DNA of 45,626 nucleotides from Myxococcales bacterium (GTDB lineage: Bacteria; Myxococcota_A; Polyangia; Polyangiales; Polyangiaceae). Made by a program: the position numbers and the translations under genes. The stretch covers positions 1-45,626 of the forward strand of contig JAAFHV010000044.1 of NCBI GenBank assembly GCA_013297655.1. Reading direction: 5' to 3'. A model generated the notes under the pieces. The model saw only the letters and a list, made by a program, of their open reading frames with translations. It was not told the origin of the DNA and did not search any database. This document shows positions 33,200 to 37,826 of this stretch, piece after piece; the first letter of the stretch is position 1, and each line of letters starts with the position of its first letter.

Positions 33200-34459
33200 T
33201 CAGAACTGGTGCGCTTCGGTCGAGTCCTCGAGGGCGAGGGTCGAGGCCTTGCCGCCGGAGATGACCTCCGCGACCTGATCGAAGTAACCGGTGCCCACTT
33301 CGCGCTGGTGGCGGGTGGCGGTGTAGCCGTCCTTCTCCGAGGCGAACTCGCGCTCCTGGAACTCGCTGTAGGCCTCCATCCCGCGCGCCTTGTAGTCCTT
33401 CGCGAGGGTGAACACGCCGTGGTTGAGCGAGTGGAAGCCGGCGAGGGTGACGAACTGGAATTTGTAGCCCATCGCGCCGAGCTCGACCTGGAACTTCTTG
33501 ATCGTCGCGTCGTCGAGGTTCTTCTTCCAGTTGAACGACGGCGAGCAGTTGTACGCGAGCATTTTCTTGGGGAACTTCGCGTGGATACCCTCGGCGAACT
33601 GCTTCGCTTGGGCGAGATCCGGGGTCGACGTCTCGCACCAGACGAGGTCGGCGTAGGGCGCGTAGGCGAGGCCGCGCGCGATGGCGGTCTCGACGCCGGC
33701 TTTGATCTTGTAGAAGCCCTCGCCGGTGCGCTCGCCCTTGAGGATGAACGGGTGGTCGCGCTCGTCGACGTCGCTCGTGAGGAGCTTCGCGCTGTCGGCG
33801 TCGGTGCGCGCGACGAGCACGGTGGGGACGTCCATCACGTCGGCCGCGAGGCGGGCGGCGACGAGGGTGCGGATGAACTGGCTCGTGGGGACGAGCACCT
33901 TGCCGCCCATGTGGCCGCACTTCTTCTCGCTCGCGAGCTGGTCCTCGAAGTGAACGCCAGCGGCGCCCGATTCGATCATGTTCTTCATGAGCTCGAACGC
34001 GTTGAGCGGGCCACCGAAGCCGGCCTCGGCGTCGGCCATGATCGGGAGGAACCAATCGTGGAGGCGTTTGCCCTCGGCGTGCTCGATTTGGTCGGCGCGC
34101 TGAAGTGCCTGGTTGATGCGCTTGACCACCGCGGGGACCGAGTCGACGGGGTAGAGGCTCTGGTCCGGGTACATGTTGCCGGACGTGTTCGCGTCGGCGG
34201 CGACTTGCCAACCCGAGAGGTAGATCGCCTTGAGACCGGCGCGCACGTGCTGCACCGCCATGTTGCCGGTGAGCGCGCCGAGGGCGGCGACGAAGGGCTC
34301 GTCGTGGAGGAGCTGCCAGAGGCGCTTCGCACCGAGGTTCGCGAGGGTGTGCTCGATCTTGACCGAGCCACGGAGCTTCTGGACGTCGGCCTGCGAGTAG
34401 GGGCGGACGATGCCTTCGAAGCGCTGGGCGAGGGCGTCACTCTGGGTCACTGCGGTCAT
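33200..34459 (-). CDS. aceA: isocitrate lyase
   Basis: 419 residues. It cleaves isocitrate to succinate and glyoxylate, the first step of the glyoxylate shunt. The signature KKCGH is at 179-183 with catalytic C181. [12 protein letters not shown] supplies metal-binding aspartates, and VARTDADS and the C-terminal [13 protein letters not shown] are typical of the bacterial enzyme. GAAGGAG lies before the ATG. It follows aceB by 48 bases, so the two form an operon with aceB first. The divergent regulator at 36315 is the likely controller. Confidence 0.96.
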
Positions 34460-34507: not shown

Positions 34508-36136
<1,629 letters not shown>

Positions 36137-36181
36137 GGGCTCTCTCGGTTCTCCGCGTCAACGCGTCGTCGATGACGCCCG

Positions 36182-36288
36182 TTGACAATGCGGTCAATTC
36201 TGTCACTCGTCAATGAACGATGTTGCGAAGGCTAGAAACCAACGTATACAACTGTCAATGACAGCGTGTCATTCTGTAAATCTGTAAA
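36182..36288. promoter_or_regulatory. operator cluster between aceB and its divergent regulator
   Basis: A dense set of GTCAAT/GTCACT/GTCATT half-sites near 36193, 36202, 36209, 36254 and 36268. Symmetric elements are TTGAC-6 nt-GTCAA (36182-36197), CTGTCA-A-TGACAG (36252-36264) and the overlapping AATGACA-GCG-TGTCATT (36257-36273). Two direct copies of TCTGTAAA abut at 36273-36288. These are plausible binding sites for the divergent regulator and explain joint control of both directions. Confidence 0.55.
36223..36250 (+). promoter_or_regulatory. candidate promoter of the regulator gene
   Basis: TTGCGA (36223-36228), 16 bases, TATACA (36245-36250). The palindromes at 36252-36273 would lie over the transcription start, which suggests self-repression. 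GTATAC is symmetric, so it could also serve the opposite strand. Confidence 0.4.
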
Positions 36289-36314
36289 CTTCGGTGTCGA
36301 ATCGGGGCGATTTC

Positions 36315-37826
36315 ATGGCAAAGCTAACGCAATCCGGCAAGGGCGCGGCGGCGAGGAGGCCAAGCAAGGCCGACAAGGGGCCGATGTTCGGCGCGAAGGT
36401 CCGCGGCCACCGGCGTTCGAAGGACATGAGCCAGGTCGATTTGGCCGACCGGCTCGGCGTCTCCGCGAGCTACCTGAACCTCATCGAGAACAACCGGCGC
36501 CCGCTCCCCGCGCCGCTCCTCATCAAGCTCGCGCAGATCTTCGACCTCGATCTCGCGGCGTTCGCGACCGACGAGGACGCGCGGATGGTGGCCGACCTGA
36601 CCGAGGCGTTCGCCGATCCGCTCTTCGAGGACGAGGACATCACGTCGGTCGACGTCCGCGAAATGGCGAACGCGAGCCCGTCGGCGTCGCGCGCTGTGCT
36701 CTCGCTTTACAAGGCCTACCAAGCGGCGCGCACCGCGGCAGACAACCTCTCGTCCAAGCTCGCCGGCGGGGAAGACATGGGCACCGTCGATCGCTCGCAC
36801 CTACCGACGGAAGAAGTGTCCGATTTCATCCAGCGCACGTGGAACTTCGTGCCCGAGCTCGAGGCCGGCGCGGAGAAGCTCTGGGCCGACGCGAAGCTCA
36901 CGACCGAAGATCTCTACCCGGGCCTCCTCCGCTACCTCGAGCGCGAGCACGGCATTTCGGTGCAGATTGCACGTTCTGGCTCGGAGCGCGGGATTTTGCG
37001 GCGGTTCGACGCCGAGAAGAAGGTCCTCGTGCTGTCCGAGCTGCTCCCCACCCGCACCCGCACGTTTCAAGTGGCGCACCAAGTGGGGCTCCTCACCCAG
37101 CGCGAATTGCTCGAGCGCCTCGTCGTCGACGGGCGGCTCACGACGCACGAGAGCCGCGCCCTCGCGCGGGTGTCGCTCGCGAACTATTTCGCCGGCGCGG
37201 TGCTCATGCCGTACGACGCGTTCATGTCGGCGTGCCGCGAGGAGCGCTACGACCTCGACGTCATCGGGCGACGGTTCAAGGTCGGCTTCGAGCAGGTCTG
37301 CCACCGGGTGACCACCCTCCGTCGCCCGGGCAACGAGGGGATCCCGTTCCACATGATCCGCATCGACGTCGCGGGGAACATTTCGAAGCGCTTCTCCGCG
37401 TCCGGGATTCGCTTCGCGCGCTTCTCCGGGGCGTGCCCGCGGTGGAACATTTTTAGCGCGTTCCTCACGCCGGGCATGATCCGTATCCAGATGTCGCGGA
37501 TGCCGGACGGCTCGTCGTTCTTCTGCCTCGCGCGCACGGTCCAGAAAGACTCGTTCGGTTACCACGCCCAAAAGCCGGTCCAGGCGATCGGCCTCGGGTG
37601 CCGCGCCGAGCTCGCGAAGGAGCTTATTTACTCGGACGGAATCGACCTGGGGAACCCGGACATCTGCATCCCGGTCGGCGTCACGTGCCGGCTCTGCGAG
37701 CGCACCGATTGCGAGCAGCGGGCGTTTCCTTCGCTGAAGCACCCGCTCACCATCGTGGACGACGTGCACCGCGCCACGCCGTACGCGCCCGCGCCCGCGT
37801 CGTCGTCCGACGTGCCGACCAGGTGA
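36315..37826 (+). CDS. short-chain fatty-acyl regulator, XRE-IrrE-DUF2083 type
   Basis: 503 residues from ATG 36315 (an in-frame GTG at 36294 would add seven). It has an N-terminal XRE helix-turn-helix (about 25-80, MSQVDLADRLGVSASYLNLI), a middle IrrE/DUF955-like domain in which the zinc motif is degenerate (VAHQVGLLT in place of HExxH), and a C-terminal DUF2083 domain with the conserved cysteines of CRLCERTDCEQRAFP. This is the ScfR/RamB/PrpR-type family, which senses acyl-CoA metabolites and controls acetate, propionate or glyoxylate genes. Divergence from aceB-aceA supports that role. Activator or repressor is not readable from sequence. Confidence 0.9.
   Translation: MAKLTQSGKGAAARRPSKADKGPMFGAKVRGHRRSKDMSQVDLADRLGVSASYLNLIENNRRPLPAPLLIKLAQIFDLDLAAFATDEDARMVADLTEAFADPLFEDEDITSVDVREMANASPSASRAVLSLYKAYQAARTAADNLSSKLAGGEDMGTVDRSHLPTEEVSDFIQRTWNFVPELEAGAEKLWADAKLTTEDLYPGLLRYLEREHGISVQIARSGSERGILRRFDAEKKVLVLSELLPTRTRTFQVAHQVGLLTQRELLERLVVDGRLTTHESRALARVSLANYFAGAVLMPYDAFMSACREERYDLDVIGRRFKVGFEQVCHRVTTLRRPGNEGIPFHMIRIDVAGNISKRFSASGIRFARFSGACPRWNIFSAFLTPGMIRIQMSRMPDGSSFFCLARTVQKDSFGYHAQKPVQAIGLGCRAELAKELIYSDGIDLGNPDICIPVGVTCRLCERTDCEQRAFPSLKHPLTIVDDVHRATPYAPAPASSSDVPTR

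Follow-up and report, generated by a model that had tools for sequence, protein, structure and literature searches.

The aceBA-regulator locus

The window, by which we mean the whole analyzed stretch of 45,626 nucleotides, carries aceA and aceB on the minus strand and, divergent from them, a gene for a regulator of the ScfR/RamB type (Table 1). The two ace genes probably form a single operon, as only 48 bases separate aceB from aceA on their common minus strand, while the gap between aceB and the regulator is 178 bases. The regulator is read from an ATG at 36315, with a GTG at 36294 as a possible alternative start.

The initial annotation, made from the sequence alone, had called the regulator ScfR-type and its divergent neighbors the glyoxylate shunt, and profile matches bear out both calls. 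A ScfRs domain (PF09856) at the C-terminus of the regulator scores 207 bits against a cut-off of 24, and aceBA is identified by PRK15063 and TIGR01344. The regulator also has an XRE helix-turn-helix (PF01381, 42.5 bits), with Leu56 in the recognition helix. It falls short of the RamB equivalog NF038139, with 422 bits against a curated cut-off of 700, and we therefore call it RamB-type rather than RamB. All four [4Fe4S] cysteines of MtPrpR (Cys363, 447, 450, and 455) align with cysteines of the regulator (Cys374, 458, 461, and 466), and in a HMMER pairwise alignment the MtPrpR CoA contacts Arg338 and Lys347 are retained and Lys217 and Lys410 are not. A search of its own genome (9.9 Mb) found the regulator to be the sole match there, and the nearest regulators among the named relatives are those of Polyangia-type Myxococcota MAGs.

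Within the gap, the 107 bases from 36182 to 36288 are 41% GC in a window of 68% GC. GTCA occurs at 36193, 36202, 36209, 36254, and 36268 and TGAC at 36183 and 36259, seven words in total, with three exact copies of GTCAAT (36193, 36209, and 36254). The presence of several GTCAAT-like half-sites had been claimed from the start, and their density is unmatched elsewhere in the window: at least seven GTCA/TGAC words are found in 33 of its 45,519 107-base intervals, all of which start at 36151-36183 and overlap the region itself. Dinucleotide shuffles of the region reached seven GTCA/TGAC words in 5 of 5,000 trials, and none of 5,000 reached the observed seven TGTMA words, counted in both orientations. 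Three symmetric pairs are present, as first described, namely TTGAC-N6-GTCAA at 36182-36197, CTGTCA-A-TGACAG at 36252-36264, and AATGACA-GCG-TGTCATT at 36257-36273; the latter two, reported as nested, strictly overlap through one common arm. The direct repeat TCTGTAAA is likewise found, at 36273 and 36281. An RNA hairpin or attenuator seems unlikely, the dyads making poor hairpins with loops of 1 and 3 bases.

Table 1. Genes and proposed regulatory features of the aceBA-regulator locus (positions in the window)
Feature	Coordinates	Strand	Basis
aceA, isocitrate lyase	33200..34459	-	PF00463; NCBIfam PRK15063, 763 bits (cut-off 562)
aceB, malate synthase A	34508..36136	-	TIGR01344, 826 bits (cut-off 594.5); ORF coordinates
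ScfR/RamB-type regulator, 503 aa	36315..37826	+	PF09856, 207 bits; PF01381, 42.5 bits
Proposed aceBA -10, CATTGT on minus strand	36185..36190	-	Putative; 3/6 consensus; 17 bp from conserved TTGACN
Ace-side box GGTCA-N4-TGTCA (GGTCA-ATTC-TGTCA)	36192..36205	+	Sequence; same form as P. denitrificans box AGTCA-N4-TGTCA (oligos 46-49 of PMC10370305)
Half-site NGTCAA (+), TTGACG on minus strand, proposed aceBA -35	36208..36213	-	NGTCAA at -44/-45 in 12/12 aligned loci; putative promoter role
Palindrome TGTCAATGACA (half-site 0 plus inverted half-site)	36253..36263	.	2 exact copies in 9.9-Mb genome
Half-site +14, TGTCA	36267..36271	+	TGTMA here in 11/12 aligned loci
Half-site +22, TGTAA	36275..36279	+	TGTMA here in 10/12 aligned loci
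Half-site +30, TGTAA	36283..36287	+	Relatives mostly +31 (TGTMA in 9/12 aligned loci)

Conservation of the half-sites and their spacing

To compare the region with its counterparts, we reduced 109 loci with a long regulator match to 60 at <92% identity, of which 43 are ace-linked and divergent (30 to aceB and 13 to aceA) and 17 are without ace linkage. Regulator-sense TGTMA averages 3.40 copies per intergenic region at the aceB-linked loci and 3.62 at the aceA-linked loci, and 0.65 in the 300 bases upstream of the 17 unlinked regulators. Across the 43 ace-linked loci, 149 regulator-sense copies were observed versus 24.5 in shuffles (the largest shuffle giving 43), and 38 copies on the opposite strand versus 12.5. 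TGTAAA is present in 35 of these loci and TGTCAA in 33, and word-to-word distances peak at 8, 9, 10, 14, 17, 22, and 31, each found 12 to 19 times versus about 0.1 in shuffles. Retention of the sites in related ace/regulator intergenic regions had been set beforehand as a test, and their number, strand, and spacing are all conserved.

Twelve loci, including the window, were aligned on the first TGTCA of the array, located by regular expression (by eye for L007, L008, and L065), so that offset 0 is TGTCA by construction. The other 19 of 31 loci first viewed were excluded, 10 having no anchor, 2 being near-copies, and 7 having differing arrays. Offset 14 holds TGTAA in nine of the aligned loci and TGTCA in two, offset 22 holds them in seven and three, and at offset 31 TGTCA is the commoner (seven, with TGTAA in two); the inverted half-site TGACA lies at +6 in 8 of 12. 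As each word replaces the other at the same array positions, the aligned sequences indicate that TGTCA and TGTAA are one half-site, to which both the TCTGTAAA repeat and the GTCA words belong. GTCAAT, the half-site first proposed, was thus close, but what is conserved is TGTMA(A), a unit that covers the TGTAAA repeat as well. The Holophagae have the same words, with TGTCAA at L023, L029, and L041 where close relatives show TGTAAA.

On the ace side, we propose that TTGACN and a CANNNT-type hexamer may constitute the aceBA promoter. The hexamer, 17 bp from TTGACN on the minus strand, starts with CA in 11 of the 12 aligned loci and fits CANNNT in 10. The aceB transcript is predicted to start near 36178. 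A generic promoter scan did not report the proposed -10; on the minus strand it gave another promoter-like pair, at 36300-36271.

Some further features of these loci were observed. Between the two groups of half-sites, at 36232-36246, the twelve aligned loci share a conserved element, approximately aGAAA..G..GT, which in several of them forms an imperfect AAAC-N4-GTTT dyad and is perhaps the promoter of the regulator or some other site. The Holophagae/Geothrix loci (L016-L042) have, near aceA, a TGTCAA-AGA-TTGAC dyad with YTATTCT after it; this strongly conserved feature is apparently a lineage-specific second operator. Anaeromyxobacter-labelled MAGs (L013, L014, and L050) contain close relatives of the regulator, for which ace neighbors were not found and upstream TGTMA words are absent. 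Finally, two genomes have the regulator region on two contigs (L112 and L067 in G033; C274/L065 and C302 in G011), with a diverged second operator in G033, reflecting either duplication or mixed bins.

A candidate operator and competing explanations

We consider it likely, with a probability of roughly 80%, that the neighboring ScfR/RamB-type regulator uses the cluster at 36182-36288 as its operator, through which it would control both its own gene and aceBA. The XRE domain would read the half-site TGTMA(A). Just 5' of the regulator ATG lies an array of four regulator-sense words (36253, 36267, 36275, and 36283) with an inverted copy at 36259, and some 45 bp from it a second group (36192, 36201, and 36208) is located at the proposed aceBA promoter. 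Regulator bound at the array is predicted to limit its own transcription. An ace-side half-site appears to overlap the aceBA -35, and so a tetramer bridging both groups would repress aceBA in the absence of its acyl-CoA; the ligand-bound form may act from the upstream array as an activator of aceBA, an analogy drawn from P. denitrificans RamB.

The study of that protein (Kremer et al. 2023; PMC10370305) describes RamB as controlling the genes for malate synthase and isocitrate lyase that are divergent from its own, proposes that it represses them on succinate and activates them on acetate, and reports that CoA esters convert the RamB tetramer to a dimer. From the wild-type and mutant probes, the class 2 RamB boxes of P. 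denitrificans Pd1222, CTGTAAGGTTTGTCA and CAGTCAGTATTGTCA in ramB sense, have the form NGTMA-N4-NGTMA, and the CTGTAAGGTTTGTCA box ends at the ramB start; RamB no longer bound when both boxes were mutated, and reporter activation was lost when either or both were changed (PMC10370305). The class 2 operator shares with the myxobacterial locus the divergent ramB-aceB arrangement, direct-repeat NGTMA, and regulator-sense boxes just before the regulator start. The NGTMA-N4-NGTMA form is present at 36192-36205, whereas the regulator-side array in the window has N3 spacing. In place of the two boxes 18 bp apart seen in the P. denitrificans probes, the myxobacterial array has offsets 0, 14, 22, and 30, together with the palindrome and the ace-promoter group. 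By its sequence, then, the putative operator is a variant of the P. denitrificans class 2 RamB kind with an added palindrome. The corresponding helix residue is also Leu in the aceB-linked homologues from Paracoccus alcaliphilus, Limimaricola, and Rhodovulum. Corynebacterium glutamicum RamB and Mycobacterium tuberculosis PrpR/RamB belong to the same protein family and have acetate or propionate targets, but their sites are reported to be TTTGCAAA-like, unlike TGTMA here (PMC4448153, PMC6765138).

An inducer derived from the ethylmalonyl-CoA pathway, as in the P. denitrificans route, is unlikely, since a profile search of the own genome returned no crotonyl-CoA reductase above cut-off.

Two factors might share the region, the ScfR on the TGTAA direct repeats and a second repressor, dimeric and of a type such as TetR or GntR, on TGTCAATGACA, an arrangement that we regard as improbable. 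The palindrome is restricted to a subset of the Polyangia-type loci (9 of all 43 ace-linked loci), in contrast to the general occurrence of the direct words, and in the loci that have it the first arm is never TGTAA, although partly by construction, as this arm served as the anchor. Against a separate factor, TGTCA and TGTAA replace one another at offsets 14, 22, and 31, and the palindrome is in register with the array. Its distribution also fits a site of the local regulator rather than that of a general factor, as it is nearly absent elsewhere. Fourteen related genomes contain 22 exact copies, 16 of them at the ace-regulator locus (counting L112, the diverged second copy of this region in G033), and the reversed control gave 0; one of the 14 lacks the palindrome, and in five both copies lie at the locus exactly 31 bp apart. 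The six off-locus copies, judged from open frames only, are apparently inside long frames in five cases (L102, L103, L108, L114, and L120) and intergenic in L111.

The second exact copy in the own genome (C511:5447; L092 1501-1511) is intergenic, with a further TGTCA about 40 bases on. One flank has a partial MerR-like Pfam match, and a frame that overlaps the site gave an F420-oxidoreductase-like one; neither of these matches shows a link to acyl-CoA. Searches of the own genome with TGTCAATGACA at up to one mismatch, TGTMA-N4-TGTMA, and TGTMA-N3-TGTMA returned the ace locus plus few others, the last pattern giving two further matches (L126 and L127); one-mismatch matches to TGTCAATGACA were assessed by scanning a small number of frames against Pfam (L093, L095, and L097), and L121 by open frames. 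A wider acyl-CoA regulon, raised at the outset, thus finds no support from the patterns tried in the own genome. The TGTMA-N4-TGTMA pair was rejected as a means of defining a regulon, having many non-ace matches in the 14 genomes, in several of them roughly as many as the reversed control.

The half-site of PhoB is CTGTCAT, and CTGTCAA and TGTCAT resemble it as words. Sites of the Pho-box kind, or of another global regulator, are nonetheless very improbable, as a global regulator would have many sites, whereas in the own genome the palindrome and closely spaced TGTMA pairs occur almost nowhere but at this locus. That the cluster is a compositional accident of an AT-richer intergenic stretch, 41% GC inside a 68% GC window, can be practically dismissed, with dinucleotide shuffles of the region giving such a cluster rarely or never and the spacing retained across distant loci.

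Recognition-helix residue and operator word in the ScfR family

Comparison of the RamB-type regulator with other ScfRs suggests that the family uses a second operator word. PccR/MccR-type ScfRs, linked to acyl-CoA carboxylase or prp genes, have the same domain set as the myxobacterial regulator but, at the loci read in this analysis, their recognition helix has Gln and the word upstream is mostly TTGCRAA. We assembled 134 non-redundant regulators from the 60 loci, 18 plasmid loci, and 59 loci of the class to which genome G070 belongs, with near-copies removed, and read the helix residue after S-Y-L-N or its variants using one looser expression for all rows. This residue is Leu in 109, Gln in 24, and His in 1. 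Leu-type regulators have on average 2.88 TGTMA and 0.17 TTGCRAA upstream, and Gln-type regulators 0.29 and 2.54, respectively. Locus by locus, TGTMA outnumbers TTGCRAA in 95 of the 109 Leu-type cases (reverse in 1, ties in 13), and TTGCRAA outnumbers TGTMA in 18 of the 24 Gln-type cases (reverse in 1, ties in 5). The plasmid loci (n = 18) were fetched after the rule had been formed; there, TGTMA is more frequent in 7/7 Leu-type loci and TTGCRAA in 7 of 11 Gln-type loci, with four ties and no reverse. In Streptomyces clavuligerus, a Gln-type regulator linked to aceA has a single TTGCGAA, and sense TGTMA is absent. The sole His-type regulator, L187, also aceA-linked, was excluded from the word counts; its words are in the opposite orientation (TGACA 3 versus 0), unlike those of nearly all others.

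Within the aligned helix-turn-helix, the Leu/Gln column best separates the operator types, with an overlap of 0.06, the next column having 0.14. Leu56 occupies what we take to be the position of Gln33 in the phage 434 repressor, a residue that makes a base contact. By a quick method, the residue changes once on the tree, and this single change makes ancestry and cause indistinguishable for Leu and Gln, so the residue is not proven to set the word, and a Fisher test of the association is not taken as proof either. Leu is also no guarantee of TGTMA, as 8 of 11 paralogues in the clade L079-L090 have Leu and yet at most one sense TGTMA upstream.

It is to us an even call whether ScfR operators are built from two words, TGTMA(A), general in the family, or TTGCRAA, set chiefly by a single helix residue, Leu versus Gln. 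The Gln branch (PccR, MccR, and related regulators) would then represent one switch, and part of the Polyangia would have gone further, converting the direct repeats of the ace operator into a pair of palindromes set 31 bp apart. A literature search by title and abstract yielded no paper dealing with this regulator in Myxococcota or with a Leu/Gln split and, within the same scope, no study of it in Holophagae.

The half-sites described here offer a predicted, base-level binding model for control of the glyoxylate shunt in Myxococcota and Holophagae, and the association of helix residue with operator word provides a one-residue, one-word prediction that covers the whole ScfR regulator family.
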